Assembly: GCA_030248295.1 (NCBI GenBank)
Contig: JASANH010000239.1
Span: 186,001 to 250,000, forward strand
From: Mesodorylaimus sp. YZB2_4
Lineage: Eukaryota > Nematoda > Enoplea > Dorylaimida > Dorylaimidae
Direction of reading: 5' to 3'
DNA length: 64,000 nt
Made by a program: the position numbers and the translations under genes. This document shows positions 1,761 to 30,800 of the stretch, in pieces. The notes below the pieces were generated by a model, which made no database searches, was not told the origin of the DNA, and saw nothing but the letters and a program-made list of their open reading frames with translations. Numbering within the stretch: position 1 is the stretch's first letter; each line of letters starts with the position of its first letter.

Positions 1761-4700
1761 ATGTTATTCTCGGTGGCAGTCGCGTGCACGTTCGCATTTT
1801 GGTGCGCCACGACAACGGTAACGTGCACGAAATCGGACGTGTTCACGAATAGTTTCTATGTGAAACTCGACCAACCGGGCAAAGAAAACGCGCATCGAAT
1901 CGCCAAACGGAACGGGTTTATCAATGTGGGACCGGTAAGTCGAGGCTAGGTGATGAGGTGATAAGTCGTGTCCGACATCCCACGGGTATACTGATAAGAA
2001 ACTTATCACTTATCCCTTTCATAAAAACTACTCAGGTTTTCTACGCGAGTGTGCAACTACTGACTGATAAAGAACTGATAAGGGGCAGAGTCATATAAAT
2101 CATCCGCCCGCTCAGCTGTCACTGATAAGCGGTAAGATAAAATTCAACTGTGATCAGTTGCGATAAAACTACACACGCATGCCTACTCATGGTATTGATA
2201 TCGTACTGATAACGTTCTGATAAGGGTTATATGTATTCTTATCAGTTATCGCTCTGACCCTGCTCACTAGCGCTGATTCCTTGTCAGGTACTGAGCTCCG
2301 AATACGAATGGCACTTTATCAAACCGGCATTGCCCAAGGCCAGGACGAAGCGTAGTGTTCACAGCCACCGATCGCTGTTCCGCGACCCAGCTGTCGTCCA
2401 TGTGGAACAGCAGGCAGGCTACAAACGATTGAAACGAGGATACCGCCCCTTGCAACAACAATTGAAAGCTTTGGACTTCGCCCCTCTCCAATCGCCCAAT
2501 GATCCCTTGTATCCTTATCAGTGGTATTTGGTGAGTGATAAGGCTTATCAGCCGAGTTCAAGCGTTGATTGCACCATTTTCTAGAAAAACACGGGTCAAG
2601 GCGGTGGGAAAGCGCGATTGGACTTGAACGTCGAAAAAGCGTGGGCACTTGGGTACACGGGCAAAAATATCACCACTGCGATTATGGATGACGGTAAGGC
2701 CACTCCTAAAACCATTTTTAGAAGTGATAGTTAATCGATGATCAAATGTTCTAGGCGTTGATTACATGCACGCCGATCTAAAAGACAATTTTGTAAGTAC
2801 CGATTTTTAAAAGGGACCATCTCCATAATAATTTTTTAATTTTCAGAACGCGGAGGCCAGCTATGACTTTAGTAGCAACGATCCATATCCGTACCCTAGG
2901 TACACCGATGACTGGTTTAATAGCCACGGTACGCGATGCGCTGGCGAAATTGCTGCCGTTCGTGACAACGGCATTTGCGGCGTTGGCGTCGCGTATAATT
3001 CGAAAATTGCGGGTAAGCAAAATTTTTTGAAATTTTCTGCAAAAATACAGTTCTGACATAATTGGTTGACTTAGGTATTCGAATGTTGGACCAGCCCTAC
3101 ATGACCGACCTGATCGAAGCCAATTCCATGGGCCATGAGCCGAACTTGATCGATATCTACTCGGCGAGCTGGGGACCAACTGACGATGGAAAGACTGTGG
3201 ATGGCCCCCGCAATGCCACCATGCGAGCCATCGTCAAGGGAGTGAATGAAGTAAGCCCCTGTTCTTTGTCACCCACCGGACTTACGAAGACAACCACTTC
3301 AAACAGGGTCGACACGGACTCGGCAACATCTTCGTGTGGGCCAGCGGCGATGGTGGCGAGGATGACGATTGCAACTGTGACGGATACGCAGCCAGCATGT
3401 GGACCATTTCCATCAACTCTGCCATCAATGATGGCGAGAATGCCCACTACGACGAAAGCTGCAGTTCCACCCTGGCATCCACGTTCAGCAACGGAGGCAA
3501 GAACCCCGAAACTGGCGTGGCCACCACCGACCTCTACGGACAGTGCACCAAGAGCCACAGCGGAACGTCCGCCGCCGCCCCAGAGGCTGCCGGTGTGTTC
3601 GCGCTGGCTTTGGAAGCCAAGTAAGAGCATTCTGTACTGCAACCCGGGCTTCACTACTAAGCATGCTCACCACGTGACCTGGAAACACTTGACCCCTCGA
3701 TTACTTCATCTTGGGACCATCTCATAAGATGCACCAGGCCTGAGGACTACCTCATAATATTCACTCATCCTAGACACCATCTCATAAGATTCGCCAAGCC
3801 TTAGGACCATCCCCTAAGAATCACTAAACCTGGTGACCATCTAATAAAATCCATTAAACCTAGGGAGCAGTTCCCAAAATAAAAAAATACGTCGATCATC
3901 CTCCAAGATTCACTAAGCCGAGGGACCATCTCCAATAACTCCTTAAACGTGGGGGCATCTCCTAAAATCCAAGAATCTTGAGTTCAAATTCAAGTTTAAG
4001 TTTTACTGTGGTCCTAGGCAGCTTGCGCTTGAGACTCACAAAGCCTGGGAACCATCCCATAGGATTCACTAAACCTGGGGATGGAACATCTCCATCAAAA
4101 ACCTTGAGACCATCTTCCAAGATGCACTAACCGTGGGAACCATCTCCTGAGATTAAAAAAAACCTTGGCCATATAACCAGCTGTTCGCTTAATCATGACC
4201 AGATACCCTGACCCACGAAAAGAACAGGACAAAGCACGGGGGCATGCATCAAAGTACTTCTACCCTTGGGTACCCTAACATCTAAGATCCAAGAATGGCC
4301 TTTGGCTACTTAACACGGTACAGTATAATTTTTAAAAATTCCAGCCAACAATTGACATGGCGCGATCTGCAACATCTGACCGTCCTGACCAGCAGCCGCA
4401 ACTCGTTGTACGATGGCCGCTGCCGCGAGATGCCTGACCTCGGACTGGTTGACAACACTGAACATCGTGTCGACTCCAACGTAAGTCATCTTATCTGAGC
4501 TGAATCGGTGTTGTAATCCTTGCGCCCGGTAGGTCATGGCGACTTGGGGGGGGGGGGGGGGAAGTTTAACCGATCTCCCCTGGTTGGAAAACGTCAACCC
4601 GTCGAGTTGATGTTTCAGTCGCAGACATAGTCGCAAGACTTGATTGCTCCTGAGGCTGTCAGGCTCGGTATTTTCTAAAACAAGAAAGTCAAAAACCAAC

Positions 4701-5808
4701 TTTTTTAGAACTGCTCGCATTTCGAATGGCAAATGAACGGTGTCGGGTTGGAATACAACCATTTATTCGGTTTTGGTGTTTTGGACGCCGCCGAAATGGT
4801 TTTGTTAGCCCGCTCTTGGAAGACGGTCCCTGCTCGTTACCACTGCGAAGCTGGTAGTTTGATGGAACCAAAGTAAGAAACCTCAAATCTAGATGATTTC
4901 TTATCTGAAACTTTAAATTTCTTAGGCGCATTCCGAGCCATGGAAATGTGATCATGGAAATCAGTACAGACGCCTGCACTGGATCGGATACGGAAATCAA
5001 TTATCTGGAACACGTTCAGGCCGTCATTAGTTTGAACAGCACGCGTCGCGGTGACGTGACTTTGTACCTGATCTCGCCCACTGGAACACAATCAGTCATT
5101 TTGACACGCCGCCCCAAGGATGATGACGACAAGGATGGATTCACCAACTGGCCCTTCATGACCACCCACACCTGGGGAGAAAACCCGCGCGGAAAATGGC
5201 GTCTGGTAGCCCGTTTCCAAGTAAGCCACTCTGCCAGCCCAGGTTGCTGACTCCCCTTTGTGCTTTTCGAGCAGCCAAAGTGATACCAGCAGACTTTTTA
5301 ACAGCAGCCTTCCTTAATGGAAGATTGAAAAATCATTCTTGAACAAAATGCACGAAGCAAAACCAGTGCAAAAATTTCTCTTGTGTTGTTATTGTGTTAG
5401 CCGTGCTTCTCACGCGCTCGCCGTCATTTTCTCTGGTGCTTTGAGACATGAAAATGAGCTTAAGGAACCTTGACTGGCTCAAGGCTATCACTGATCAATC
5501 ACTGATCAGGCTATTAAATCATCAAAATATACCCATATTTGACTGTAGTCGGTCATATCTCAGCCAAATCTGAAATGCACGGCTAATAGAAAACCTCCAC
5601 AAGAATACTCTTACTCTCAAAACTGCGCTTGCTTTTTTTACAGGGTCCAAAAGTTCAAGAAGGTTGGATCAATCGTTGGACGTTGATGTTGCACGGAACT
5701 CGCGACCCACCCTACGCTGGTATCGAGCCATTAGCTGGACACGTGAATTCGAAGCTGCAAGTTGTGCAACGCGCCCACAAACGAATGGTGGCCGCCGCAC
5801 AGGCTTGA
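1761..5808 (+). CDS. egl-3: Proprotein convertase 2 (PC2/EGL-3), 11 exons, 659 aa
   Basis: A kexin-type subtilisin protease that cleaves neuropeptide and prohormone precursors after dibasic sites in dense-core vesicles. Exons: 1761-1934, 2288-2530, 2585-2693, 2755-2792, 2847-3012, 3075-3250, 3307-3620, 4345-4480, 4709-4872, 4926-5220, 5644-5808; all phases close. Residues 1-22 look like a signal peptide. The propeptide has RTKR at 77-80 and a KRLKR site ending at 108 just before the mature domain. The catalytic triad is Asp174 (MDDG), His215 (HGTRC) and Ser390 ([12 protein letters not shown]). The oxyanion position is Asp317 in ASGDGG; furin and PC1 have Asn there, so this is diagnostic for PC2. 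A P domain follows to about residue 630 and the tail is short. Mammalian PC2 needs the chaperone 7B2; no 7B2 gene is in this window. Length and spacing fit PC2 well (human 638 aa). Introns 1 and 2 carry a GATA-site cluster. Confidence 0.95.
1959..2551. promoter_or_regulatory. Cluster of TGATAA (GATA-factor) sites in introns 1-2 of the PC2 gene
   Basis: Exact TGATAA occurs at 1959, 1992, 2065, 2076, 2123, 2207 and 2218 on +, and near 2003 and 2239 on -. Three more lie at the end of exon 2 and in intron 2 (about 2515, 2536, 2545). Several are the extended form ACTGATAAG (1990, 2074, 2121 and 2238 on -). Two six-mer strands would give well under one site by chance over 600 bases. ACTGATAAG is the site bound by nematode intestinal GATA factors of the ELT-2 type. 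Enhancer function is inferred. Confidence 0.6.
3713..4155. repeat. Decayed intronic minisatellite in PC2 intron 7
   Basis: Intron 7 (3621-4344) holds about a dozen diverged copies of a 31-36 base unit, of the type GGGACCATCTCATAAGATTC followed by ACTAAACCT. Copies differ by many substitutions and small indels, so the array is old. It accounts for most of the length of this otherwise short-intron gene's longest intron. Confidence 0.7.
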
Positions 5809-8966: not shown

Positions 8967-11588
8967 TTTTGTCTTCACAAAATATTATTTCTACTCGTTA
9001 TATGAAAATATCCGAGAACAATGTTGACTAAGCGATAGGGAGCGAGTTCATGGACAATTTCATTGACGTCGTATGTGTCGGCAAGAATGTGAATTGTATA
9101 CCTGTCAAGCGAGGCGGGCCTGTGTACGCGATCTGGTGTGCTAGCGGGAGACGACCTAGCCTGCCATCTAGGGAAAAGAGGGAAGCTCGCTTCGATGCCT
9201 CGGCCTGGTTATTGGCCAGAGGAAGGCTCGTTGAAGAATCAATACTGCTCCAAGCCGAGGTCGAACACGGGTTCTAGCAGCTACGCACCCAGAATCAATA
9301 CTCCTCCCCCCCCCCCCTTCATACGTACGATTGCAGAGGGGATACTCGGGATCGAATGTTTGCTGGTGCTGGTTGGAAAGTGAAAAATGTAGATTTAGAA
9401 TACTCAAAGAAAGGAATTAAAACTTGTGTTTTCAAAAATTTTATTGCCAAGGTAGGAAGCAGAGATAACATGGGCGGGGGGGGGGGTGAGAGAATTACAT
9501 GTGCGGCTTCCGTGCCATGAAATTGAGCAGCATGCCATTGGGGCATCGAGAATCTCAAAATAAGATTGACCCCTACGGCTCGCATCAGGTGATGTTCGCA
9601 GTCCAGCCATGGCTGCCTTGAGGTGGCGCGGTTTGTGGTCTGCAGTCACACTTGGTTATAAAAAGAGAGCAGGCTTTCGAGCGGTATCGGCTTGATGCTT
9701 AAGGGAGACCTGAGGACGTATTCCAGAAGCGTTTTCCAGCGAGATTTTCCAGTGAGGTGACTGGATTCTAGTGAGATGACTGCGTTTGCTATTACAGAAA
9801 CAATTGCAGTCACATAGTTCCAGTCACTGAGCCCGATAATACAGTCGCTGCGCAAAAAATACCTAAACGCTATTCCATAAAACTTTGTCGCTTGGAAAGT
9901 CCAGTGAACTAAAGTATCGAAGGTGGCTGGGAAAAATCTTCAGGTGCTCTCGATCGCCTGAAACTGTTTTCCAGCGAGCTTTTACCAAATATAAACAGTA
10001 GAGTTTTGCTGTGAGTTGTCCCAATGGCAGAGCAGAGATATGGCGGTCAATGCGAGGGAGGATTTTTTCAGGTTTCCAATGAAAGGAAGGAGGTGCGGGA
10101 ATTTTAGGACCACAGAAAAACACTTCAGACAATTTCAGAAGTGTACAACTGCCCAATTGATTGAGCCCATGTTATTGATGTAGCAAGTGCGTCTTCAGCA
10201 CCAGTTCGGATCTGATTGTAAAATAAAAGAGAAACTGATCGTTTTACATCCACATACTGTACTGTAACGTTTGTCTCGCATGATTTTCCGCCTAGCCGCA
10301 GTGGTGTTCAGCTTAGTTTTGACATCGATCGGGCGATCCAAGTAGTAGGTGGTCAACAGTCCAGGCAATAGACAGATCCTCTGCACTTCAAAAAAAGAAA
10401 AGAGCTTCAACCTTCGATGACAATTTACACGTGATAAGCACAGGTTCGATTCTCCCACCCAGCTCCACAAGCATAACATTCCGTAGATTCCATCATACCT
10501 GGCTAAACTCCAGTGCATATACTCTTGAGATGGAACATTCGTACTTTTGTTTGGCACTTGGAGCTCTCCTAGAAGCGTCATCGAAGAAGGGAGGAAGTCA
10601 TGTGAAAAGGTGCAAAATTTTTAGAAAAATGAATGTAAGAAGTGCAGGAGTAGGAAGGAATAAACGTGAGAAAGGGGGGGGGTGGAAGATAGAAGAAATC
10701 ATGACCTGCAATTTATTTTCTCTACTTTTACCTGACATTCACACTCATCTCTCTCCAGCCGCTTCGAACACCCCTGAAATCACTATTGCGACGTTGCACT
10801 CTGCGTGCGTATCTACTTACAAACCGTAGGTGATAGCAAAATGCACGCGGAAGTCCCTGGAATATGCGAGCCTTGTCACCAGAAAATCACAACGACCCCA
10901 TTTTATTTATGGAATAGGCGCAAGAAGTAAGGCCTTTCTACAGTCACCTCAATTGACTTTCACAGCGAGCTCAGTGAAATAAGTCACAGTCGCCTCATTG
11001 AAAAGTTACAGTCATCACGCTGGAATTTTCCGTTCATGTCACTATTTTCTAGCGAGCTTTCTGGAATACGGCCTCTGGTTCAGAGCATAAGGTATCCCCC
11101 ACTGGTCGTTTCCCCTTGTCTGCTCTGGTATGAAATCGATTCACGATCACTGAGATATGTGATGCCCGTAGCACCAGTATTTGAAAAATGTGCCTACTCA
11201 AATTTTTGACCCTTCGTTTAGAACTAACGCACATGCACGAATCGTTATCATTTATTCTAGAACATGTGAAACGCTTTCTTCCATCAGCCTATTGTTTCTG
11301 CATGTGTCTTTCAGTGCTTAAGGGCAGTCTACTCTGCTTTGCTGGAGGTACAGTATAATCATCATTATCATTGATCCTACTGTAAATTCCACTTAGCGTT
11401 AAAATGAACTTAGAAAAAGATAAATGTTAATATACAAATAATGATTTTTTCAAAAATCACAATCGAAAAATTGTGGACCAGCCAGTGCATCTGTGATCAC
11501 AGAGACTAGAAATGCCTTTCGACGTCGAGTTGCTCGCCCATTTGGTAGAATACGGGTCCTAACACGTTCTGTACGCCTAGTTGCACGC
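8967..11588. other. Intergenic with a possible decayed transposon
   Basis: No exon supported. Poly-C and poly-G tracts lie at 9306-9317, 9476-9486 and 10674-10682. Near-matching inverted segments of the type CGTATTCCAGAA occur at about 9714 and, reversed, at about 11075. Both are accompanied inward by short repeats resembling CCAGTGAGGTGACTG (9740-9960 and 10945-11030). This suggests an old inverted-repeat element of about 1.4 kb. Confidence 0.4.
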
Positions 11589-13730
11589 ACAAAGCACAGT
11601 GTGCAGTATACGGGTACTATGGGACCCATCACAAAGCACAGTGTGCAGTATGCGGGTACTATGGGACCCATCACAAAGCACAGTGTGCAGTATGCGGGTA
11701 CTATGGGACCCACCACAAAGCACAGTGTGCAGTATGCGGGTACTATGGGACTTATCACAAAGCACAGTGTGCAGTATGCGGGTACTATGGGACTTATCAC
11801 AAATCACAGTGTGCAGTATGCGGGTACTATGGGACTTATCACAAAGCACAGTGTGCAGTACGCGGGTACTATGGGACTTATCACAAATCACAGTGTGCAG
11901 TATGCGGGTACTATGGGACCCATCACAAAGCACAGTGTGCAGTATGCGGGTACTATGGGACCCATCACAAAGCACAGTGTGCAGTATACGGGTACTATGG
12001 GACCCATCACAAAGCACAGTGTGCGGTATACGGGTACTATGGGACCCATCACAAAGCACAGTGTGCAGTATACGGGTACTATGGGACCCATCACAAAGCA
12101 CAGTGTGCAGTATACGGGTACTATGGGACCCATCACAAAGCACAGTGTGCGGTATACGGGTACTATGGGACCCATCACAAAGCACAGTGTGCAGTATACG
12201 GGTACTATGGGACCCATCACAAAGCACAGTGTGCAGTATACGGGTACTATGGGACCCATCACAAAGCACAGTGTGCAGTATACGGGTACTATGGGACCCA
12301 TCACAAAGCACAGTGTGCAGTATACGGGTACTATGGGACCCATCACAAAGCACAGTGTGCGGTATACGGGTACTATGGGACCCATCACAAAGCACAGTGT
12401 GCGGTATACGGGTACTATGGGACCCATCACAAAGCACAGTGTGCAGTATACGGGTACTATGGGACCCATCACAAAGCACAGTGTGCAGTATACGGGTACT
12501 ATGGGACCCATCACAAAGCACAGTGTGCAGTATACGGGTACTATGGGACCCATCACAAAGCACAGTGTGCAGTATACGGGTACTATGGGACCCATCACAA
12601 AGCACAGTGTGCGGTATACGGGTACTATGGGACCCATCACAAAGCACAGTGTGCAGTATACGGGTACTATGGGACCCATCACAAAGCACAGTGTGCAGTA
12701 TACGGGTACTATGGGACCCATCACAAAGCACAGTGTGCAGTATACGGGTACTATGGGACCCATCACAAAGCACAGTGTGCAGTATACGGGTACTATGGGA
12801 CCCATCACAAAGCACAGTGTGCAGTATACGGGTACTATGGGACCCATCACAAAGCACAGTGTGCAGTATACGGGTACTATGGGACCCATCACAAAGCACA
12901 GTGTGCGGTATACGGGTACTATGGGACCCATCACAAAGCACAGTGTGCGGTATACGGGTACTATGGGACCCATCACAAAGCACAGTGTGCAGTATACGGG
13001 TACTATGGGACCCATCACAAAGCACAGTGTGCAGTATACGGGTACTATGGGACCCATCACAAAGCACAGTGTGCAGTATACGGGTACTATGGGACCCATC
13101 ACAAAGCACAGTGTGCAGTATACGGGTACTATGGGACCCATCACAAAGCACAGTGTGCAGTATACGGGTACTATGGGACCCATCACAAAGCACAGTGTGC
13201 AGTATACGGGTACTATGGGACCCATCACAAAGCACAGTGTGCGGTATACGGGTACTATGGGACCCATCACAAAGCACAGTGTGCAGTATACGGGTACTAT
13301 GGGACCCATCACAAAGCACAGTGTGCAGTATACGGGTACTATGGGACCCATCACAAAGCACAGTGTGCGGTATACGGGTACTATGGGACCCATCACAAAG
13401 CACAGTGTGCAGTATACGGGTACTATGGGACCCATCACAAAGCACAGTGTGCAGTATACGGGTACTATGGGACCCATCACAAAGCACAGTGTGCAGTATA
13501 CGGGTACTATGGGACCCATCACAAAGCACAGTGTGCAGTATACGGGTACTATGGGACCCATCACAAAGCACAGTGTGCAGTACGCGGGTACTATGGGACC
13601 CATCACAAAGCACAGTGTGCAGTATGCGGGTACTATGGGACCCACCACAAAGCAAAGTGTGCAGTACGCGGGTACTATAGGACTTATCACATAGCACAGT
13701 GTGCAGTATGCGGGTATTATGGGACCCATC
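11589..13730. repeat. Satellite array: exactly 51 tandem copies of a 42-bp unit
   Basis: The array is 2142 bases, or 51 x 42, with no net insertion or deletion. The unit starts ACAAAGCACAGTGTGCAGTA and ends ATGGGACCCATC. It contains two perfect 5+1+5 inverted repeats (GCACAGTGTGC and ATGGGACCCAT). Edge copies (units 2-9 and 48-51) carry extra variants (TATGCGG, TACGCGG, ACTTATC, AAATCAC). The centre is nearly uniform, differing only by CAG/CGG at one position. Because 42 is divisible by three and the unit lacks stops in five of six frames, long open frames of up to about 740 codons appear on both strands. They are a by-product. The variants are almost all non-synonymous in the longest + frame, which argues against a protein. 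Confidence 0.95.
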
Positions 13731-14409
13731 ACACAGATTTTTTATCAGTCGCTCCAGCTGACGACGGGCAAGGGACTCGAGCTCCAACTTACTGTGAATG
13801 CAGCACACACCAACAGCACTGGCAGATCTGCCTCAAAATCAATGTGAAGAACACTTCAATTCCTTGGCTAGATCAACTCCGATCAACTCAGCCAGCACAT
13901 TGACCGTCCCAGCTATGCTGAGGTGGCTCAGCTGAGACTGTCGATACTCCAATGATTTCTGGAAAAATAAATTTTTTTGCACTCAATGTATGAACTAAAA
14001 CCATTTTGTCTCTGTAATCGAGGTAGATACCGGTTTGTGAAGTCCAATCAGACTTTTATAGATTTTAATGCTGCTTTATAGTCACAGGATTTTTCTGGAA
14101 GAAACATAAAAATCCTCCAAACGATTCTGAAGTGCGCAAGACACGCAATATCAGCTGTGTGCACTGACTATTGTGACTTTATCACCGCATACGCACCTTT
14201 TACAGCCCCACGAAAATACCAAAAAACTTTTACCCAATTTGAGATAATACAGTCATACCAAACACTCCAACACCTACGAAAAGATGTCTGACCTAAAAAA
14301 TTTTTTTAATCCATGTTTTAAAGCAGCAAGTGTACCTTATTGAAAATCGAAAATCGAAAATCGAGAACCGATAATCGATACTCCATAATCGATAATCGAT
14401 TATCAGTGA
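13731..14409. other. Between the satellite and the MPP8 3' end
   Basis: No exon supported; it presumably includes the MPP8 3' UTR. At 14341-14403 there is a short low-complexity run of AAAATCG repeats passing into repeated ATAATCGAT-like palindromes. Confidence 0.5.
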
Positions 14410-17400
14410 TCATGGATAGAAAGGATGTGGCGGATGTCTAGGATGATCTTTGCTTGCAGGTTCAGGGGGTGTGGGTGGTCTGAATCGTCTCTGTCCATCA
14501 CGATCGTTCGACCAAGCACCGCCAGGACTCGATGAATTGGACCAGCTGGTAGTAACTGATCGATTTCCCTCAGTTCCACTTGGACTTAGCTGTGAACTGG
14601 AACTCGACACGCTGAAAGTGTCGACCATCCAATCATCACTGTGCTGATTATACCGACGCTGCGATGAATTGATGATCATTGAATTGCGATCTTCATAATC
14701 TGGTGTGGGTGAGCGAGGACGCCATTTTGGTGGATGATCTCGAGTAGGTTTCAATATCGATTTTTTCGGTTGCAAGACACCAATTGATGTTGGATAGCTC
14801 GGTTGGAAATGGACCAGTCGTAGATTCTGTAGGTAAGAAAATTTTTGTGGCAGGTATTCTAAGCAGCACGGGCAAGAATTCTATGAGTTCTATTGAAAAA
14901 GTCGCAATTTTTAACAGATTCGTGTAATTCAGTAAATGGCGGGAAATTTGAAATTTACAACATCTTTACGCAATTTCATAAATGGCGGAAAATTTAAATT
15001 CAATTTTATTCTCAATCAAGCTAATAGAACCTGAACAAGCTTAATCGATAGAGCCAATTCTGATGTCTCTGCTGCAGCTTCATCCACCCCAGCCATGGAG
15101 GATATAGAACGATTAAGAGAGGGTTTCTGAGAGACTCGACCCATAAAAAATATACTTGGCCAGTCGACTTTCTGGCCCCCCCCCCCCCATTTTTAAGTGC
15201 TCTATCAAAAGCACTCACAAAACTGATTGTCTTTGCAAAAGTGAAATTTGAAAAAATGCCCATATATGGAACTATGGCACATTATGCGGGAAAACTGGTC
15301 ACTTTTGGTAAAAAAAATCATAGCTTGCTTAATTTTTAACCTAGAACAATTTTAAAAAAAAAGGAATGATAGCTACATACATTCTAAAAAACCCGAATCT
15401 TTTTTTAAAATTAGCCTAGCTTTAACCGTTCATGAGATATTTTTTTAAAAGCAGACGGTGATCAGGTGCATAATCGATTATCTGTGAATTATAAAAACCA
15501 AGTGTCCCCGTTTTTTTCCTTTAAACAGTAGCCTAGGGTCGGTACATCATGAAACAACCCGAATTTCCACACTACGGACCACAGTTATTGTGCACATAGC
15601 CGATAACTGCGCCCTGTTTCGCCAATTTTAGCGAGTCATGATCGATAATCCTGGCTGTTAATCATTCGCGCAGATCAGTAATAGCCTATCTTGTAGCCCT
15701 TGAAAAAAGCATTAAAATAGTTTTTTTCTAGTTAGAAGTCGTTGATTTTCGCCTGAGATATTGAGAAAAACTCAAATTCGGAAGGATAGCCTGCAGTACG
15801 CACCTTTTGAATTTCCCGCCCGTGTGCCGCTTATGACACAAGAGGGGCTTTGGCTGCTTTCTCCGGGAGTCGCAAGTAAATTTCAAAACTTTTCTTATTT
15901 TTCATGAAAGGCAGATGCTCAAGCACAGAATTAGACTGACACGTGATGAAATAGTGAAAAACTCATGAATCAACTGGCGATTCCCGGCGTAAGCAGCCAA
16001 AGACACTATTATGTCATAGGCGGCACGCGGGCGGGAAATTCAAAAGGTGCGTATTGAAGGCACTCCTCCCGAATTTGAGTTTTCTTTAATATCTCGGGCA
16101 AAAATCAATGAATTCTAACGCGGAAAAAAACCATGTAGAAGCTTTTTTCGAGAGCTAAAAGAAAGGCTATGACTGATTAGCGCGAGTAATCAGTCATAGC
16201 TGTGTCGGTAATTTCTGTGTTTTCAGAATGTTTTATGCCCAAAAGTAAGCAAGTTATGATTTTTTGACCAGGAGTGACTACTTTTCACCATTAAAGTGCT
16301 ATATTTCCATATTCAGGCAGATTGGGAAAATTTCACTTCGGCCAAGACAATCTGTTTTGTGAGTTTTGTGAGAGCAAATAAAAAAGGGGGTCAAAAAAGT
16401 CGACTGGCCAGCCCCGGGTTGAGTCTCTCAGAAACCCTCTCTTGATTGTGCAAAATTTGGAAAAGCTGACCGTTCTAGACACGTGCATTTCTCGTTGATT
16501 TTGCCACCAAAAATGATTGGTTCGCCACATAACTCTCATACATTACCGCCATCATAAAAAATAAGACCACTCTACACCAATTAGCAGGAATTTCAAATTT
16601 CGCGCCATTTTTGCATTTTAAAAATTTTAGCATTATCTTGTGATAATTAAAGTATAATTAGAAAAACTCTGACCTACTCAAAACTTTTTTGGCCCTCCAC
16701 CAGTACTTTTTTAATGCCCAGGTAAAATATCAAAAAAATGGTATGTGTACTCAAATACTTTACGCATTTTTCAAGTTCAAATTTCGCGCTAATTTTGAAA
16801 AAAGCGCAAGGACAGCTGAAAATTATCCAACTGACATTTGGAAAATCTCAATTTTTCATCTTATGATTTGTGCTGGTGATAAGATTACAAAAATGAGACA
16901 GATTTCCTACTGTAGCTGACAGACGACCATATCGGGCAAGCAGGAACTTTGAAAAGTTCGATTTTTCAAAGAAGATGCATCCATTGTGTACGTTAGAATA
17001 ATCTGAGAGCTCTCCATTTTTCCAGCCGGTCTACTCTTCCAGAAAGCTCCATCTAAAATTCAAAAAAAATTTCTTACCCCAGTGTAAGCCGTATTAGCCA
17101 TGGTGATAAAAATTTTTTCCTCCCACAAGATGGTGAACCCAACGAGTCCCCACTCTAGCAGCTTTCCTGCTTCCCTTCGACCATCTTTCTTCGAGCAAAG
17201 TGTGCAAATAAGAATTCTCCAAAACCAGTTTTTCTCAAAGTCGTTCAACTTCGATGTGTACTTTAGAAACTTTGTGCAAGAAACCAAGGTTTCTTGGCAA
17301 ACAATAGAAAAATCTTTTACTCGAAACTAGTTTCGTTCTCTCGTAGATCTCAATTTGCCAGAAATGAAATAAATCGGTTCTCTTTCTGAACACGTTCATA

Positions 17401-20400
17401 AAAAATATCCAACAAATTTTTTGCGATAATTGCAAAAAAAAGATTATAGTATGATCTTCCAAGATGCAAGTTCATAAAATTAGAAAAACTGTAGTTCAGA
17501 GAAAAGTTGTCAGAAAATGACGAGATCTAACAGCTTACAGTGCTTTGAAAACATCATATATTGTCTTACTGTATTTCACTTTTTAAGTCAAGTCCTTTAG
17601 AAAAATCACTTTTTGGCTTACTTGAAATTTTTTTTGCTTTTGTGGTAAGTAAATGTCCAAAGAAGAAAAAAGTGGGGGTTAAATAAGGCAGTCAAAGAAT
17701 TTTTTAAACTTGCTATTCAACTAACAAGGGAAAATCGCCAACCGTTAAGTCGAATTTTGGAAAACTGAAAATTGTAACATGTTCCTGGGTGCAAAAGAAA
17801 GCTTTGTGCAAAATATTAGAGGCGTCTGGCCAACTGGTAAGTTGTAGTCAGCCCGTAAAATACAGTGAAATTTTCAAATTCTGCTGTCAAATTCGAGTGT
17901 TGTAAGCTTAAACTCGAAACCCCGAACCGAAAAACCTAGTTCAAAAAGACTCTGCGTGTTTTTCTCATCACTCAGCTATGTTACCACACAAAAATTCTGG
18001 ACTTTAGACGCTGACCACTGCTGACCAGTTGGCCAGACGCCTCTTATATTTTGCACCCAGGAACATGTCACAATTTTTGGTTCCTCAAAGTTCGACTTAA
18101 CGGTTGGCGATGTTCCATTGTGAGACAACTCAAGGGTCGACCAAAACCTTGCCAAGTGAAACTTTTGACCCCATTTTCTGTGCTTAGCTGCATGTATCCC
18201 ATGAGTGTATGGTAATGCAGGAGTCAAAAATGTTTTTCAGCTCTCTATAAAAATACGCATGAAAACGTATTGCTTTGGCGATTATCGGCCATATCCCCCA
18301 AGCCTTGGCCCTGGAATGATTGGAATATATCGGAACGGCCACAAGATAATAAGCTATCGAATGCTTTCAGAATTCTTCGTAGGGGCCGTACAAATACGAC
18401 GTCGCACGCCAGAGGGGGGGGGGGGGGGTCAGGCCAAATACGACGTCGTTTGTGCACTGGATATTCCAAGGTCACACTGCCGCCTGTACAGACTGCAAGC
18501 TGCTGCTGCTGATAGCAAGGCCAACCCAGGTCCTGCAAATGGTCCCAAGCCTACTCAAGCCTTGGGTTTCTATGTTGTATTGTGTGTTATCCATGATTAT
18601 CGGATTATCGCCACTCCAAAACGCGCCAGAATGGAACACTTCGCACCTACAAGTGATCTGTGATTTGGTGTCGTTCATGCTGGGTGTGCGTCTTCCTCTG
18701 TCGACCTGAATGGTCTGTTCGTCTCTTTTCTCTGGGTTACTGTAAACACCTCACTCGAAGCGTTGTCGTCTCTTTGTCTCTACATCTCGCGATAGATGTG
18801 GTAGCGTTCGTTCAGGGTCGCCCCTCCCTAACCTAATCCGGATAAAAAAGTGGTCGGGATTGAATGTTGTAGAGATGTGTGAAGAAGGGGAAGGGGAGAG
18901 GAAGGGATAAGGAAGGAAATGTTCCAGAAGGGTAAGCTAGAGAAACTTTAGCGGATGTTTGAACTGGTAAAGAGGAAGGAAGGGATTTGCTTGGTGAATG
19001 GTGAATAATTCGATGCTTTTTTGCTTGCATTTTTGTTGAATGCAATGATAAATACTGTACCGCACAAAAAATTTTGGGCTCTACATTTGCTGTCTACTTA
19101 GGGCGGGTTGTAGGTCACCTACAGCGAATTAAAAGAGAAAAAACCACTCTTAAAATCCCGATCTCGAAAAGTGATCCCGAACGAACGCTAAGATGTGCAC
19201 ACCAAGTCTGCGATATGTCGCAGTGCTCTTGATGGCAGTGAGAGTCTTGATGCACACAGGTCGGATAATTTGGAAGCCAGATCGAGAATCTGATACAAAA
19301 AATTTTGATTTTCCTTCTCATTCGTACAAAAGTCAAATCAAAAAGAGAGAAGATGCAGGCTTCAAAAATTCGAATCCTTGTAGTGCTTTAGCACAGTTAA
19401 CAAAAAATGGGTGGCTCTTACGCTGAACCTCAGCCTTACCTAGTAAAGTTCTTGTGGCAACTTTACAAATAAATTATCTATCAGAAATAAGAGACCGCGA
19501 GAATTTCAAATCAGCAAAAAATTTTCCAATTTCCTGATAGTTCGTCAGGATGTTGCAGTTTTTTCCAGATGTCACTGTTTTTTAAACCAGGGTTTCTCAC
19601 TGCTTACATATTTTTACTTTAACTCAATAAAGGCACAAAATCCATTTCTAAGCCAAGGCACATATCATAGTTGCTACCTCCCACAAATCAAAGCTACTGC
19701 AGGCATCTCGCTCATAAACCACAATGTACACCACATGCATGTTCACTACACCATTCCAGATTCCAGTCCTTCCTCCACGTTCCTCGCTTTTTAGTCAGCA
19801 CTTTCACGATTTTGAACCATTATTTTTTTGTAATAATACCCTCCGACGACCACAACTTCCTAAAACCAAAACCTGAAAGTAAAATTTCCCTGACCACTTT
19901 ATTCTTAAATCTTACCTCTGGCGCGATTTTTCGCGTCAACTTAATTTTAAGCAAATTTTTTCCAAATTTTGCATCCCTTATAGCCGCTTGATGACCGCCA
20001 TGCTAAAAAATTTCAAAAAATACTTCTCCTCGAGCGCAGTAAAACACAGAAAATCAATTATGAACGAAGTCCAGACGCTAAAAGTGGCAGAATTAGCGCA
20101 CACGGCAATTTTCGCTCTACAGTACTTTTAAATTGACTTTTCAGAGAAAAGCCCCCGAAATTATGCAACCACCTACAAGCCATAACTCACTGGTTTTCTA
20201 GACCACAAAAGCGAAGCAGGAAAAAAGAATCAGGAGAGATCTACTGAACACAAATTTTCAGCCCCTTTTCGATAAGACTTACCCAAGCACCAACATTCAA
20301 TTTTTTCCCATTAAGCATCACTTCGCTGACAAATCCCGAGTCATCCTTATGGGCAAATTCCGCAAACTTCTCACGATTCAACACTCCAATTCGCATGCAC

Positions 20401-23400
20401 ACAATTGCAGCGCAACCTGAAATTTTTGAAAACTAAATTTTTCTTACCAAGATGTAAATAAACTACTAAAGTCAAAACTTTGAATTCCCGCGCTCGCACA
20501 CATCAAAACTACATGTGCGCGTTTTGGATTTTGAAAAATGTCGAAAATTCAGAATTTTTCAGATTTCTTTTCTTACCTTCCACTTCTTCCAAAATGTTGA
20601 ATGGAATATGCAAATAATAATTTTCCGCCTGCGTAAACCAACGCAAATCCAAACATGAATTTTTCAACTCGGCGAATCCATGAAAAACCCGTTTTGTCCA
20701 TTCGAAAAAATCTTTTACCGTTCTGCGAAATAAAACAATAAGGATTTAAAAAATCCAACACAACAATATTATACCTTTCTAAAATCGTTTTCACCAAAAT
20801 CTGCATAGTTTCCAATTCTTTCGATTCCGGATCTTTCTTTAACTCTTCTTCGATAATGTCATAAATTGTATGCTCGCTAGTATTTTTCAAAGTTAAACAA
20901 GCGCCGCGAGAAATCAACAATTTCACAACGGCAAGATTTTTTCGTTTCACAGCCTAAAAAAGAGGGAAAAAAGTTTCAATTATTATCTAGTCCATTATCC
21001 AGTCAGCTTCTCCTATTTTTATTTCCAAGTGAACGTTTTGCTTGGCGCTGATTCTGATCCCAACTTTTACCAGAAAATCTGTGCGTGAGAAATATGAAAA
21101 AATTTTGAATAGAGTATAGATTTGAAAATTTGCTACTCACCCCACTCGTTTTTCATTTTTTTTGTGAATTCTTACTTTTTGTAAGCAAATTTTTCAAAAA
21201 AATTTGAAAATTGGAATTGAAAAGCAACTTACAGCAAACAAAGCCGTTTCGTTATTCCATCTTTCCGCAACGTCTAAAAGTGGCGAGAATTTCAATAAAG
21301 TATCAACACAGCATTCTGAACCCTAAAAAAACAGATTACAGAATAATTCTCGATTGAAACAAAGATTATCCAACTTACGTTTTTACAAAGTAGGATTAAA
21401 GCAGTTTCACCCCGTAAATTTTTCAAATTCAAATCAACATCATTTTTGACAAGATGCTCAATAATTTGGCAAAAATCCTTGCGTTCGTTGTCCTGATTTT
21501 TCGAAGCATACATCAATAAAGTATATCCTGAAAGAAACCTTTTTTTGAAAGATCCATTTTTATCCCTAATGTTTAGCGCGAGACCGACGGGAGAAAAAAA
21601 GCAGAATAAAGTAAAGATTTGGAAACTTCTTATTTAGTCTTTAGCATGTGTGAAACTTTGCGACTTGAACTATTAAGACACGCTTTTTGAAAAAAATCGA
21701 GCTAGGGACGACTAAGCCTTTAATTTTTGACCTCCTTTTTTATTTGTGCATCAGATGCACCCATGAGTTATGATAGTGACGCAACAGTGCTTTTTTGTGC
21801 AAACTCGATTTTCACGAGATTATTCCCAAAACAACGTTTTTTTGAAAGAGCTTGGGCGATATCGGTCATAACTCACTGACCTTTCGGTCTTTCTCGATCA
21901 ACGACTCACCAGCGTATTTGCTAATTAATGAGCAGTCGAATGCTTGTCGCAATAAGTTTTTATCTTTCGCCTATCTTGGTCAAAACCAGATGTATGGGGC
22001 GTACTTAGGGCTGGTCAAACCCCGTCATCCAGTTGGCATAAACGAACAATTGGTATAAAAAAAGTCATTTTAAGGGAGACCTCCCACTTTGGCATCCAAC
22101 ATCTCGAGACAGGTAGAAGGTAGAAACTTATCGCGACAAGCATTCGATTCCTTATTCATTTGCGAACACGCTGATGTGTCGTTGATCGAGAAAAAGTGAA
22201 AGGTCGGTGAGTTATGGCCAATATCGCCGAAGCACCTTGAAAATTCCGTTTCTTTCATAATTCGGTGAAAATCGTGTGTGCCCAAAAGCATTGTTACATC
22301 ACTATTATCACTCACGGGCGCGTCTAATGCACACATAAAAAAGATGGGTAAAAAAATTGAAGCTTGCCAATCTTATGTTTCCCATAAGTGGAACCTTACA
22401 GATAGCCTGTTTCGAAAAAGAGAAAATACATACCAGTTGGACTTAGTTGAGAAACGGCACATTCATAAGGACCGTATTGATTGATCAAATCGACTACTTT
22501 TTTGATGTCGCCAGCGCGAACTGCATTGTACAACTGTCGATCTGGAAAATCTAAAAAAGGAAATAACAGATTACCCAAAAAAATTAAGGGGACTAGAGGG
22601 TCTGCTGTGCCAGATGGAAAGAAATGAGGCTTTAGGTGGGTCAGACTGGAAGATCTGAATTAATTTTTTCCATCCTCTGAGATCCACCAACAATTTCGAG
22701 ATTCGGATAAAACAAGAAATCAAAAAATTTACCTTCTTGAGAATTCGGAAGAGTTATGGCATTATAAATTTGAATATTCTCATCGGAAGAAATTGACAGA
22801 TTTGAAGGGCAATCGCAAAAAATGACGGGTTCATCATGTTCCTCATTTTCAGATTCCTCCATCGAATCCGATCTTTCTTCGACATCGCTTTCACTCTCCG
22901 AACTTGAGCCACGGCCATCGTCATCTTCTTCTTCTTCTTCGATCGAACGAATCGATGGAGTAGATGAGATCGATTCGGTCGAAATCGTGTGAATTTCTTC
23001 AAGATCTGCATTTTCCTCGGAGATAAAACGAGGAGTTGGAAATAATAATTCGGGCGATGGCGATTCGCTTGAGAAATCGTTCGAATCAGCCACAGTCGAT
23101 ATATTAGTTGAGAGTGATTTTTTTTTCATAGCTGATTTTTCTTTAGCCGATAAAACGCTAGCAATCGAGTTCTCGATTTTAGAACTACTTGTGTCAGAAT
23201 TTTTGGCTTTTCTTTTTCTGATTGAGGATCTTTTAATTTTTTCTTCATCTTCATCTTCCGAATTTGATGTTGCAGTCGCTGGTTTTTTGTTCGAAGAATA
23301 CTTTTTCGATGACTGACTAATTTCTTCTTCACGCAATTGTTCGTAAAATGAATTGCCAGCTGATTTATTGACTGAAATTCGTGTTTGTTTTTTATTTTTG

Positions 23401-23854
23401 TTTTGTTCCGCCTTAAAAAAAATTAAAAACTAAAAGAAATACCGCAAAACTGAAAACAGGGTCTTTTACCTTTTTCGGCAGAAAATCTAGACTTTTAAGG
23501 TACGGGGTTAAAAAAATCAGGCAGAATGCTCCCGTGGAAACCGTAGGTTAAGGAATATACTGCACCTTATTTTTCAGAAATGTTTGCACCATGCCCCAAC
23601 ACGCGATGAGATTTTCTTTTGGTTCCCACGTATCATCGTCCGGACCGTATCCTTTCCAGCGAACGCGATACATCCGTTTACCCTAAATATAAACCAGAAA
23701 AATACTGCAAGGAAAATTGATTTTGCATAGGCCAACCTACACCTAGCGTTCTCATTCCAACGATCTCTTCGACCTCGTAGATGCCTTCCGCCTCGTTCAC
23801 CACGACAGGCGCTTCGATTTCTTGTACTTCATTATCCAGTTCTATTCTCGACAT
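14410..23854 (-). CDS. MPHOSPH8: MPP8 (M-phase phosphoprotein 8) orthologue, H3K9me reader, 10 exons, 713 aa
   Basis: Exons on -: 23854-23741, 23682-23566, 23411-22733, 22550-22434, 21527-21379, 21322-21233, 20953-20775, 20722-20577, 20416-20283, 14826-14410. A chromodomain (about 25-77) matches the MPP8 chromodomain closely. Its methyl-lysine cage aromatics are present (Tyr26, Trp47, Tyr50), followed by the DDDTWEP signature. Residues 80-300 are a Ser/Glu/Lys-rich disordered linker with long acidic runs. About four ankyrin repeats span 305-470. A C-terminal domain starts TVKDFFEW (483-490) and aligns along its length with the part of human MPP8 that engages TASOR in HUSH. The last exon lies 5.5 kb away but joins in phase 0 and continues the alignment briefly (LRLVHFQP). 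It then runs into Pro/Ser-rich sequence not in human MPP8. The last exon is therefore the least certain (about 0.65), and a missed exon is possible. Expected role: nuclear reader of H3K9 methylation in transposon silencing. Confidence 0.88.
15117..16441. mobile_element. 1.3-kb foldback element with TTAA-type target site (family A, copy 1)
   Basis: It lies in the last MPP8 intron. The termini are inverted: GAGAGGGTTTCTGAGAGA at the left and its complement at the right, one mismatch over about 23 bases. The flanks are TTAA (15113-15116) and TTGA (16442-16445), a decayed TTAA duplication. Complementarity continues inward with interruptions through most of the element, giving a long hairpin with an outer GGCCAGTCGAC box and an inner GTTGATTTT...GAGATATTGAG box. 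No transposase frame is present. The TTAA target suggests mobilisation by a piggyBac-type transposase. Confidence 0.8.
17725..18120. mobile_element. Foldback MITE of about 396 bp (family B)
   Basis: It lies in the last MPP8 intron. The arms (17725-17850 and 18003-18120) are about 85-90% complementary. They include a CGCCAACCGTTAAGTCGAA box near the ends and GAGGCGTCTGGCCAACTGG further in. A related segment lies at 48661-48775, where CAAGGGAACATCGCTAACCG opens a similar sequence. There is no coding capacity. Confidence 0.75.
21746..22336. mobile_element. Foldback MITE of about 590 bp inside an MPP8 intron (family C)
   Basis: It occupies the intron between the exons ending at 22434 and starting at 21527. 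The arms are about 260 bases each, with GTGCATCAGATGCACCC at the left pairing with GCGTCTAATGCACAC at the right. Inner boxes such as GATATCGGTCATAACTCACT recur inverted as AGTTATGGCCAATATCGCC. The arms give look-alike reading frames on opposite strands, which are not genes. Confidence 0.75.
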
Positions 23855-24895: not shown

Positions 24896-27800
24896 TTAAC
24901 TCGCGCGCAATGTCTCCGTCTCAGTCGGTGTAGCCGAGTCGTAAACCGTGTCATTATCACGCACCTCTGTTTGTAACCGACATCGCAATTCTAACGTCCC
25001 AGCGCCACAGTCGCAAAAAAATCTGAAGAACCAACGTTTTAGAAAAATAACTGGAAACCATATTTTACCCACCAGTATCATCCACTTGCAATGTCTCAAA
25101 CTACTATGGCTCTTACTCCCAAAGTAAGTCGGTACCTTATCCAGACTAGTCAAGGTAACTGGTTTTGAGCCCATAAAACACAGCTTGAGGAAATCGAAGC
25201 ACAAGGCATCACAACCAGAGAAATACAGTTTAAGATTGAGGGTCGCTTTTTGACCAAGTACTGTATGTGATCCTAGTTACATTATTACCAACCACCCATC
25301 CGACAACATCAGGTCGGTGTGCACGCTTTATCTCGCGCCACAGCATCAACCAGGTGATCCTACTGTAAGTCAGTCACAGGCAGCGACCATGGACACAACG
25401 CTAATATGTACCTGAAACCATATTTTACGCAACCCATGAAAAAGTGGCATTCTCATCAACGCATGTATATTAGAATGTCTATGACCACATTACTGTACAG
25501 TAGATAAAAAACTTTGTTCTGCGTAAAATACAGTTTCAGCTAAAGACTTATTTTGTCTGCCCTCACCTATCATGTCGTACAAATTCCACTTGATGATCGC
25601 GATGACACGTTTTTATACAATTGACACAAATAGCATTCCGATCCGACGTGTGGCAAGTAATGCACCTAAAATAAAATTACTGTGTCATGACCTACCTGTG
25701 CCCCCTCAGTTCAATAACTCGACCCCAGCCTTGACAGACCCACACATCTGACTGGTCAGACAAATCACACACAAGTCAGCAATGGATCCAAAACAAACTT
25801 GCTGCTTTTTCCTCCAGGACTATCCTTCATGCACCTGAAAAATTTCAAAGCCCCCTGGGGCAGGGGCTAGGCTTCGGATGCTGACCCCACTAGGAACTGA
25901 TGCATCTCGCCCCCACTTACTTATAAAAATCGTGCATCGGGAAACTCGTACAACTACTGATCTTGAACAAACATTGTCCACTGGCCACCGCTTTTTCCAC
26001 CACATTCAAATTTTTGAAAACCTTATTATCTTTCATAACTGGTTGAACTCCTGTCGCCACGCAAATTCCACCAAATTTATTATTGAACACGATATTTCCA
26101 TCCAAAGTGGCCGTCGCACCGTTCGTGATTTCCAATCCGGCCGCTTTGCCATCGAAGATACGATTACGACGTAAAGTCGGATTACTCTCAGTCGATATCA
26201 ACACTCCGGCCTGGGCATTACGAAATATTTCATTCTCTTCCAATACGCCTAGAAAGAATCAAAAAACACACATTTTCTACCTTGGCAAAACCTCAAAAAA
26301 GCACATATTTTGACCACATAAACCCTCAAAACGAAGCAAATTTTGTATCTTGGCAAAACCTATTAAGCATCTAACCTACAGTATATGACTCAATCGATTA
26401 CAAAAATGACCTAACCTACAGACCTACTGGGAATATGATCATATTCTCAAAACAGACATCACCTTCTAATCGTAGAACAAGGTGATACTACTTTTCCCGC
26501 CATTTTCAATTTGAATTTTTCTGGATAACTGAATTTCTTGCGCAAGAACATTTCTGAAACTCGTTAGTGAGCGGCTGTCAGCCATAGCACACGCACATAC
26601 CCTCAGCTGTACCATTAGACCCATTTAGGGTGTGCTGCTGGGCCTTCCTCCCAAACACACCACACCACATACCTCGTCCCTTATTGAAAATGCACACACC
26701 ACCATCTCGTCCATCGTAGATCTTATTCCGTCTCAAAACTGGATGGCTATCGGTCTTAATCCACACGCCAGCCATGGCATTATCGAATATCTCGTTCTCT
26801 TCCAACAAGCCCAGCCCACTGTTGTACACCAGAACACCACCATTTTGACCACCCCATATCTTGTTACGACGAATCTGCGGGTTACTACCAGTCCTAAAAA
26901 AAAGTATTCAAAAAATACAATCTACTTTTCTAAAAACCAGTTCATAACAGCATCCCAAACCTGGACCCTTGCCAGAGGGTGAGAGCGGGGTTGGGGAGCA
27001 AGTTTTCTGCATGCATTGCGGTACCTTACAGAGTTCGTCAGAGCGCGGAAAATGATTTTCCCTGATTTTTCCAAACAAAAATTTAAATTTCCCTTTGACC
27101 TTTCACGATTTGAAACCTCCAAGCGCAACTTTTCACATTTTCCCTAATTTTAGCTTAAAAATTCCTAACTTTCCAAGACACTTTTCGGATTCTTCGACTT
27201 TTCCAAACTTGACTGCTCGATAGCCTGAACCTTGCGATAGTGCCGCATGCAACTGCGTGCGCACAAAATTTGCAGGCAGCAATATACACTCACCAGGGAA
27301 GACCTCACTTGGGTTAGAGGGAAATACCCAGTTGCGCCGCTTACGAGTTGCGCCGTTCGGATTGCGCCGTTTCCTGATTGCGCCGTTTTGTGTTGCGCCA
27401 ATCCATAATTGCACCGCTTTGAGTTGCGCTTGTCACTAATTGCGCTGATTTCTCAGGTTGGATTGAAACCTCTCTGGGCCCGGCATCGAACGATCCAACC
27501 CTAAGTCTGGATGCCGATCCGACTCGGCCAATCCGCTCCAAAAGAATTTAGATTGATGGGGATGACGCATAAGCACTTGGCACTGCGTCCTCACCAACCT
27601 GCTCTGTTTCCTCGCTGTCACTCTGTCAGTCCACTCTAAAGGACGCAGGGAGGAGAAAGCAGCAGAGCCTAAAGTGGGACTAAATGCTATTTTGAGAGAA
27701 AAAACGGGATTTTCTCATCATAGTATGCCACACCTTATCATTCTTCGGCAGATACAGAGCGTAAAATTTCAGTTGCCGATCCAGCGGTCGGATCGGATAG

Positions 27801-30800
27801 GGAACCGATCAACCCCTCGGATCGCTCCGGCCGGATCGGTCAATGCTGGCTCTGGGCCGCAACGATTCGTGATCAGTGCTCATACTGTGGGTATGAGCAC
27901 TGATCACGAATTATGAGCTCAAATTTTGATGGCTTGCTCAAGAACCTATCAAAAATTTCATTGCAGAAACGCAGCTTTTTTAGCATCGCGTCTAGTCGAG
28001 ACCTGATCATAAGCGGCCGAAAGCTTTACTTTCATCAGGATTATTACAAGGTTAGATGATGTGCGAGTAAACACAGGCAACTACCACAAACTGCTATACC
28101 ACTCTATGACCCGGCTCAATCAAAGAGCGGCGCAACAGAAAGAAACGCAATTCGGGGTTGGCGAAATTAGGACATGGCGCAAACCAAAACAGCGCAAATA
28201 GCTCAGCGCTAGTAGAAACGGCGCAATCAGGAACGGCTCAACTGGCCTACACCCGGGCTAGATGCCTCTCGACTGGAGTCTTCGACTCATGTCAGTTCGA
28301 TTCCTACCTGGGAGGTCTCGTCAAAAACTGGCCAATTTTGTGTTAAAATGAGAGGAATCACCAAATAAAAGAATGTGGACGGGGGGGGGGGGGGTCACAT
28401 ATGCGACCTTCCTCCCCCCCCCCATAGATGCTGGTTCATACAAATCTCAATTCTCCAGTTCAGTTGGTTTAAGAACAGAGTTCATACAAGGAGAGGAAAA
28501 TGATTTTCACCAATTTCTTCATGTTATATTCACAAAACTTTGATATTTCAAATCTTGAAGTTTTCACGCCCACAGATCTCCTCGAGTTTGGTTAAGAAAT
28601 TCTCATTTTCCAAAATTTTTTAAACACTCACAGGACTCACAGACTTTTGCAGGTTACTCACATTTTCCAGCCTTGTATGAACCCTGTGACCTCTGTTCTT
28701 CCACCACCCCCCCACTTACCTTATTTGTACACCCGAATATAAATGGCTATAAATATCATTCTCCTCCAATAAACCATGCCCGCCGTCGTAAAAATAAACG
28801 CCCACTTGTTTTCCCGAATGAATTCGATTTCGTCTTAAAATCGGTGTCGACCCAGTCGTCACCCAAATACCAGCCAACGTATTACAATACACTTCGTTAT
28901 CTTCGATCAAACCTTTGCCTTTTTCATGCTGAAAGAGTTGAAAAAACCCTTTTCCCTCAAATCGATGCATATTCATCTGAAAATTCCTATCTCCACCCAA
29001 AAAGCAATTTTTACGGGAATAACCTCGAATAAAGTGACTTTACTTTAATATCCTGTCGTAGCCTAGCGGGTTAAGGCGTCCGCCTCTCACGCCTACAGGC
29101 CAGGGTTCGACTCCCACCCAGGGTAAAGCTTTTTACCGGTTTACATGTTCCTTAGCCCTCGAGTGCGCTGCTCAGCTATGGATAAAGTATGGGAAACCTG
29201 AGGGTTCGACTCCCACCCAGGGTGAAAGTTTATCATTGATTTATATGATCGCTTGCCCTCGAGTGTCCTGTACAGTGCTTAGCTATGAATAAATTATGAC
29301 ATAATTGATTAGCATACCACATAAATTCCGCCATGTTGCCCGTGATGTATTTTATTATGACGAACAATCGGATCAGATCCAGTACGAATTTGAATACCAG
29401 CCAATGCATTGCCATAAATATTGTTGCACTCGATCAATCCTCGTCCTTCCCCGAAAACGTACACGCCACCTTGGTGACCATTATATATTTCATTCTTCCT
29501 GAAAAAAAATCTTGTTGCCTTAAAAAATTTGAATACATTTACAAAACAAATTTTTCCAAACTCGAATTTTTTTTAAAACTTCGGAAATCATTTTACATTT
29601 AAATTTGTTTTCAATTATTTAGTTTTTTAAAAACGGCTTTCAATGTTTTTCATTAATTGGAAATCCAAAAGTACAAAATTTTATTCGTTTTTTTCTAATT
29701 TCAATTCAATTTGAACTCAAATTCAATGAAAAATTTTAAAATTTACGGGTTTTTAATCTCAATTTAAATGCGCATTTTTTATTAATTTTTTTTCAGAATC
29801 ATTTTTAAAAAAATTTGCATAACATATAAAATCCCTCTTTCCACATTTTAGCATCTTCATTCAAAAAACTTTTCTCCCCCCCCCCCCCCGGCTTACCTTA
29901 TGGTCGGTTCCGAATGTGATGTAATCCAAATTCCGGCAAAATTATTAGCGTATATTTTATTCTCCAAAAACCGTCCTCTCCCTTCCTCGTGCACATATAT
30001 TCCACCAGTTTGGCCGTGATGTATCTCGCTTCGGACCACGGTCGGATTGCCGTGCTGTTTCACTTCGATGCCCGAAATACGATTATTATGAATATTGCAC
30101 TTCTCAAAATAACCCTAAAAAAAACCACAAAATCTTCAATTTCTCAATAATTTACAGTACCAAAAAATTTTGAGCAACATCTGGGTGGGGACCATTAAAA
30201 AAAATGACAATGCTGTGATAAGTGGGCCCGGGTCGCGGCCAAGCGATAGGTTCGACTCCTGGCTCGTTAAAAATGATTAGGAAACATGTGTTCCTGAACT
30301 ATCGGGTGCTAGGCTATGGACAAAATATGACATGACATGCTTTCTTTTCCTCAGATCCGTATCGCTGTTTCAAAAGATTCAAAAATCGATTTTTCAGAGA
30401 CAGTTGAATCGCATGCAATTCCCGCCCTTTTGAAAGTGATGCTCAGGTAGCATGTCATATTGTAACCGCTAATTTCTCATTCAAAATCATTCCATGGTTC
30501 CCAGCACCTTGCAAGACCAGAATTTGAGGAGGTTTTGATGAGTTTTGAGGAGGTTTTTACGCCAACAAATGACTTTGCTCTGCTCCACAAACTGACACCT
30601 ACAGTATATTTTCTCACTGACAACCCTACCCTCATCCCCAACCATCTCATCAACCATACCCTCCTAACTAACCCTTTTATCAGCTCGAGAACACAAACGT
30701 GACCACCTGAACGCATCAAACTCAGTAGGGATAGGTCAGGATCACTTCCAGCATCGACCGACCCGGGTGTGAAGTCACCAAACCGACCCGACCCGACCCA

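Follow-up and report, generated by a model that had tools for sequence, protein, structure and literature searches.

A probable orthologue of the HUSH subunit MPP8 in the nematode Mesodorylaimus, in a genome that also carries TASOR and MORC2

Introduction

Has a nematode kept the HUSH silencing complex? The question is raised by a chromodomain gene in a stretch of 64,000 nucleotides (hereafter the window, meaning this whole stretch at its full length) from Mesodorylaimus sp. YZB2_4 (GenBank assembly GCA_030248295.1, contig JASANH010000239.1, positions 186,001 to 250,000). An initial annotation, made from the letters of the window alone, had read this gene as MPP8 (MPHOSPH8), a subunit of HUSH. 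In the passages of the papers cited here, HUSH is termed vertebrate-specific (PMC7532188), and orthologues of MPP8 and MORC2 are stated to be missing from Drosophila and Caenorhabditis (PMC9635835), which agrees with the annotation's remark that model nematodes and flies lack a clear MPP8. A passage of a review on C. elegans chromodomain proteins poses the existence of HUSH-like complexes as an open question (PMC7649781). For TASOR, a 2023 survey describes the full architecture with the PIN domain in vertebrates and a DUF3715-SPOC-DomI arrangement in TASOR-like proteins across metazoa, invertebrates included (PMC10578480), and a pond snail TASOR transcript is named in PMC12294990. Among the titles and opening parts of abstracts in the open-access literature, we found no report of MPP8, TASOR or HUSH from a nematode.

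Here we describe the gene, which is very probably the nematode orthologue of MPP8, together with a TASOR gene and a MORC2 gene found elsewhere in the same genome. The best reading of this set is that a nematode has retained a HUSH-type silencing complex, whose binding and function we infer.

Results

The MPP8-like gene lies on the minus strand and consists of ten exons joined in frame from a start codon at 23,854 (Table 1). All nine junctions preserve the reading frame and have a GT donor and an AG acceptor, most of the acceptors being preceded by runs of T, and the introns measure between 52 and 906 bases. The model encodes 604 amino acids through exon 10, and the complete protein would have about 604 to 636. 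Its 3' limit is 19,916 if exon 10 is spliced onward and 19,820 if exon 10 runs to a stop; when the donor at 19915 is left unused, the frame remains open until the stop at 19822-19820. The gene is present as a single copy, its 679-base linker exon matching only itself in the genome assembly (145 Mb in 1067 contigs).

To score the exons, we used codon bias trained on other genes and compared the three sense frames, with 2000 non-coding 300-mers serving as background. The called frame was preferred in nine out of ten exons, at 0.06-0.28 bits per codon; exon 5 was the exception, with 0.08 for the called frame versus 0.11 for another frame. The bias was small in exons 2, 4, 5 and 6 (0.06-0.11), which fell under the non-coding maximum of 0.13 (95% point, 0.04).

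The initial annotation had extended the gene down to 14,410, apparently with the open frame at 14,411-14,826 on the minus strand as its last exon. We rejected this exon, which had a codon bias of 0.00, no Pfam match and one match in the genome. The frame does possess an AG acceptor. Of 12 alignment settings, the best was one in which the first 40 residues of this frame were appended (74 out of 5000 shuffles equal), which we did not count because 12 settings had been tried. The lower end at 14.4 kb was dropped because neither codon bias nor a domain was found there, and the gene ends instead at one of the two limits given above.

The spliced product matched the Pfam family Chromo (PF00385) at 53.6 bits. 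Aromatic residues occupy Y26, W47 and Y50 of the gene model, which we take to be the positions of the methyl-lysine cage; the cage thus appears intact, as had been annotated. Among the best 60 of 271 matches of the chromodomain in the PDB, three MPP8 sequences led with 57.2, 55.6 and 55.1 bits, followed by CDYL (46.9 bits) and CBX1 (40.7 bits). Pairwise identity was computed against nine human sequences and against pieces, several of them fragmentary, of 8 of the 70 Chromo matches in the genome. Human MPP8 came first with 29 identical residues out of 55, and a chromodomain from the same genome and human CDYL reached 24/49 and 26/55, respectively. By these measures the chromodomain appears closer to MPP8 than to the CDYL, HP1 or Polycomb types. 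The 70 Chromo matches are spread over many contigs, and many of them are near-identical frames of 72-74 amino acids, some containing stops, with the look of transposon copies.

Downstream of the acidic linker, the ankyrin repeats matched Pfam PF12796 at 57.1 bits. The C-terminal part taken as a whole was similar to human MPP8 at z=19, a score that none of 2000 shuffles equalled. HHalign against vertebrate MPP8 placed 171-173 columns in register, running from the repeats into a long helix and ending in TVKDFFE/TIKDYFE at column 181. As controls we used 32 generic ankyrin proteins, none of which reached column 181 (best, 177) and none of which carried the motif; one out of 32 had a looser version. 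What is specific to MPP8, as judged by sequence, is the alignment register together with the helix motif, not the repeat score.

The genome also contains the TASOR-like gene for which the initial annotation had proposed a search and whose absence was to have refuted it, with both a DUF3715 pseudo-PARP domain and a PIN_TASOR domain. When DUF3715 was sought in all six frames, the single match, weak and stop-containing, lay on contig C90 (21.9 bits, below the cut-off), where an intron had been read through in a multi-exon gene. That gene has 16 exons, encodes 854 amino acids and ends in a stop. Once exons 1-8 were spliced, DUF3715 scored 70.2 bits, and the sole PDB match at E up to 1 was human TASOR (6TL1, E=3.5e-30). 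Searching the whole genome for PIN_TASOR led back to this gene, about 6 kb further downstream (50.8 bits). In the full model, PIN_TASOR matched at E=2e-26 over profile positions 1-137 of 141 and DUF3715 at E=1.5e-18. In a two-sequence BLASTP comparison with one mammalian TASOR, both ends were collinear (E=1e-30 and 6e-14, respectively), and a protein search that scored the 7994 most word-sharing candidates returned ten matches, all of them mammalian TASOR. A further stretch, on C110, gave a weak PIN match of 18.1 bits, below the cut-off.

Four CW zinc finger matches were found in the genome; C13 and C19 carry MORC genes, and C53 carries one match in open frames. The C13 gene, for which the query consisted of trimmed open pieces and not an exact splice, scored 418 bits with MORC2 compared with 151 for MORC4 and 148 for MORC3, and its best six solved matches were MORC2. 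Its S5, HATPase_c_3 and zf-CW domains were all above the cut-off, and its domains are those of human MORC2, the HUSH effector: a GHKL ATPase, an S5 domain and a CW zinc finger. On sequence, the assignment to MORC2 as an orthologue is clear. A separate MORC3/4-type gene lies on C19 (915000-924999), where two CW-like stretches stand next to each other, one over and one under the cut-off. We also found a SETDB1-type Tudor_4 exon above the cut-off, a single exon at C61:268103-268234.

The host is a nematode, as had been supposed at the outset. The domain Col_cuticle_N marks the cuticle collagens of nematodes and matched 133 times in the genome. One match lies on C27, the MPP8 contig (C27:99099-99224), and one on the TASOR contig (C90:219521-219640), about 23 kb from TASOR. 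Our search for the SL1 trans-splice leader gave no match among the 50 scored of 31302 candidates.

The exons of the MPP8-like gene and the other features of the window are collected in Table 1. The long open reading frames in the tandem array below the gene are not evidence of a gene, because the array lacks stops in several frames of either strand. The beta-helix and F-box exons presumably belong to an FBXO11-type gene.

Table 1. Exons of the MPP8-like gene, followed by other features of the window (window coordinates).
Feature	Position	Strand	Observation
MPP8 exon 1	23741..23854	-	start codon and first half of chromodomain; donor GTAGGT; Pfam Chromo found in the spliced product
MPP8 exon 2	23566..23682	-	second half of chromodomain with cage W and Y; Chromo 41.6 bits in genome-wide search
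MPP8 exon 3	22733..23411	-	acidic, Ser/Glu-rich low-complexity linker; in-frame codon bias 0.22 bits per codon
MPP8 exon 4	22434..22550	-	start of ankyrin region
MPP8 exon 5	21379..21527	-	ankyrin repeats; called frame not singled out by codon bias
MPP8 exon 6	21233..21322	-	ankyrin repeat
MPP8 exon 7	20775..20953	-	final ankyrin repeats and start of long helix; codon bias 0.28
MPP8 exon 8	20577..20722	-	TVKDFFEW motif at end of long helix; start of C-terminal domain
MPP8 exon 9	20283..20416	-	middle part of C-terminal domain; PINIT-like fold not detectable by sequence
MPP8 exon 10	19916..20002	-	added in the present analysis
Subtilase exon	3250-3621	+	
Tandem array	11588-13733		42-base unit, 51 copies, 97% matches
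Beta-helix exons and F-box exon	25920-29039 and 37088-37531	-	
tRNA call	29050-29125	+	called by one of two programs only
Open frame	40407-42440	-	678 codons; Fn3_nematode match 20.4 bits, below cut-off
tRNA call	43224-43310	-	called by one of two programs only
RVT_1 reverse transcriptase	46684-47247	+	81 bits; apparent non-LTR retroelement (by eye), about 23 kb from MPP8 gene
MFS transporter	49021-50619	-	long intronless open reading frame
M13 peptidase exon	57316-58335	+	
MULE transposase domain	61362-62069	+	between the M13 peptidase exon (57-58 kb) and a similar-looking peptidase stretch (63 kb, by eye)

Discussion

In its common features, the predicted protein follows human MPP8 (860 amino acids): an N-terminal chromodomain with a cage, an extended charged linker and, towards the C-terminus, ankyrin repeats followed by a long helix that ends in T[IV]KD[FY]FE. 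It is shorter, at about 604-636 amino acids, and has about 24 residues ahead of the chromodomain compared with 58 in human MPP8, where the chromodomain begins at residue 59 (PMC7618375). Human MPP8 further has a PINIT-like domain beyond the helix, as described in a passage of the same paper, and the corresponding nematode part is too diverged for recognition. Of the domain order in the initial annotation, the chromodomain, the acidic linker, the ankyrin repeats and the TVKDFFE motif in register therefore stand, and the PINIT-like part was at chance in most settings.

Several results weigh against identifying the gene as MPP8. Over the repeats alone, the PDB search gave 64.7 bits for Kidins220 and 32.2 for 8QFB, the structure of the MPP8 C-terminus. 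In HHalign to the vertebrate MPP8 alignment, the 32 generic ankyrin proteins scored 59.6-118.6 versus 84.0 for this protein. The initial annotation had named best matches outside MPP8 over the ankyrin and C-terminal parts as a refutation, and half of this came true, generic proteins scoring higher over the ankyrin repeats. When homologues were sought with the ankyrin region and the C-terminus as query, the 14.4 kb frame included, 32 out of 3103 candidates matched, none of them named MPP8; this search was swamped by ankyrin words, and the databases may hold nematode proteins automatically named MPP8. Searching with the C-terminal part of human MPP8 gave 647 matches out of 779 candidates, the best 120 being mammals, one bird (two rows) and two nameless rows, so that we had no invertebrate bridge sequences. 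From 67 of these 120 best-matching proteins, which were caught by a pattern, we derived 32 distinct vertebrate sequences for a hidden Markov model (HMM) of the PINIT-like region, and the region was absent from the best 42 of 5002 rows. In pairwise comparison the part after the motif was equalled by 1339-2238 of 5000 shuffles, and by 4-243 of 5000 when the helix and motif were taken along; with alternative gene ends, 74-4911 of 5000 shuffles were equal after the motif. Homology of the last 120 or so residues, corresponding to the TASOR-binding PINIT-like site of MPP8, cannot be shown from sequence. The chromodomain comparison proposed at the outset gave a divided result, human MPP8 being first in the pairwise ranking and a tree of 18 short rows not separating the groups. 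By itself the chromodomain is weak evidence, because C. elegans CEC chromodomains resemble that of MPP8 as well, according to a passage of PMC7649781.

The alternative that draws most on these results is a CEC-like nematode chromodomain protein that gained its ankyrin repeats independently and is neither MPP8 nor part of HUSH. A CEC protein would explain an MPP8-like chromodomain in a nematode and a tree that does not separate the groups, and independently gained repeats would explain why generic ankyrin proteins match equally well or better and why no PINIT-like region can be detected. However, the register of the long helix and its motif fit MPP8, as they do in none of the 32 controls, and the same genome holds TASOR and MORC2. 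CEC proteins, moreover, diverge from MPP8 outside the chromodomain (PMC7649781, in part), whereas the gene described here encodes both an ankyrin region and the motif of the long helix. We consider this alternative improbable.

A second group of results that weigh against the MPP8-HUSH reading concerns TASOR and periphilin. The TASOR gene keeps DUF3715 and then PIN_TASOR in the same order as vertebrate TASOR; it encodes 854 amino acids compared with 1450 in the vertebrate isoform used for comparison. The match to DomI, which human TASOR needs for binding MPP8, was weak, with 54 and 178 out of 5000 shuffles scoring as high. A SPOC domain looked convincing by eye and was dropped, as pairwise and HMM comparisons were at chance (182-4864 of 5000 shuffles equal) and its region did not match better than other windows of mammalian TASOR. 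For TASOR_alpha-beta, the one candidate did not match at an E-value of 1 or below, and the search for periphilin, which had also been suggested initially, yielded no candidate for Periphilin_C (PF25234); both were exon-by-exon genome searches, which have little power for short domains spread over several exons and in which the controls were silent.

These gaps leave room for true MPP8 and TASOR orthologues in a changed role, for example germline gene regulation together with the RNAi machinery, and without transposon silencing. Nuclear RNAi is strong in nematodes, the DomI and alpha-beta regions of TASOR are not recognisable and no periphilin was found, all of which would suit such a role. Nevertheless, conservation extends to both end domains of TASOR, to the cage of the chromodomain and to MORC2, which suggests constraint on the whole pathway, and we judge a changed role to be slightly less probable still than a CEC-like origin. 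That the genes come from a contaminating non-nematode animal, an artefact that an assembly in so many contigs could in principle harbour, is rejected, being largely refuted by the collagen matches on both C27 and C90, and has next to no probability.

The preferred reading remains an MPP8 orthologue in a nematode that has kept a HUSH-type complex, and by analogy with the human system a course of events can be proposed. Judged by its sequence, the MPP8 chromodomain has an intact cage, and its most likely ligand is methylated H3K9. The ankyrin part at the C-terminus would, by comparison with the human MPP8-TASOR pair, most likely bind the TASOR of this genome. TASOR on nascent transcripts would then bring the MPP8 reader to long unspliced transposon RNA, and MPP8 would link TASOR to H3K9me3 and recruit further methylation. 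A SETDB1-type enzyme, of which one Tudor exon was found, may extend the H3K9 methylation, and the MORC2 orthologue may compact the chromatin. A more particular proposal is that a stripped-down HUSH works in this nematode, made up of MPP8, MORC2 and a short TASOR that has kept the pseudo-PARP and PIN domains while DomI was either lost or remodelled; periphilin would be beyond recognition and another protein would act as RNA sensor. We regard this version as possible but doubtful.

Two features are new with respect to the literature passages compared: MPP8 in an unexpected phylum, and a TASOR that, as far as its sequence can be read, has a PIN domain, no recognisable alpha-beta region and a weak DomI. 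The PIN domain is the part that the survey of 2023 assigned to the vertebrate architecture (PMC10578480, in part). With MPP8, TASOR and MORC2 together in a nematode genome, the set probably goes back at least to the ancestor that nematodes share with vertebrates, and its absence from model worms and flies would reflect losses.

The finding points to HUSH transposon-silencing machinery outside vertebrates. If a working HUSH complex does exist in this nematode, it would be an ancestral bilaterian defence against transposons, with losses in Caenorhabditis and Drosophila, and could operate in a nematode alongside nuclear RNAi. The comparison can reveal which HUSH components are ancient and how the complex divides the work with RNA-guided silencing in one animal.

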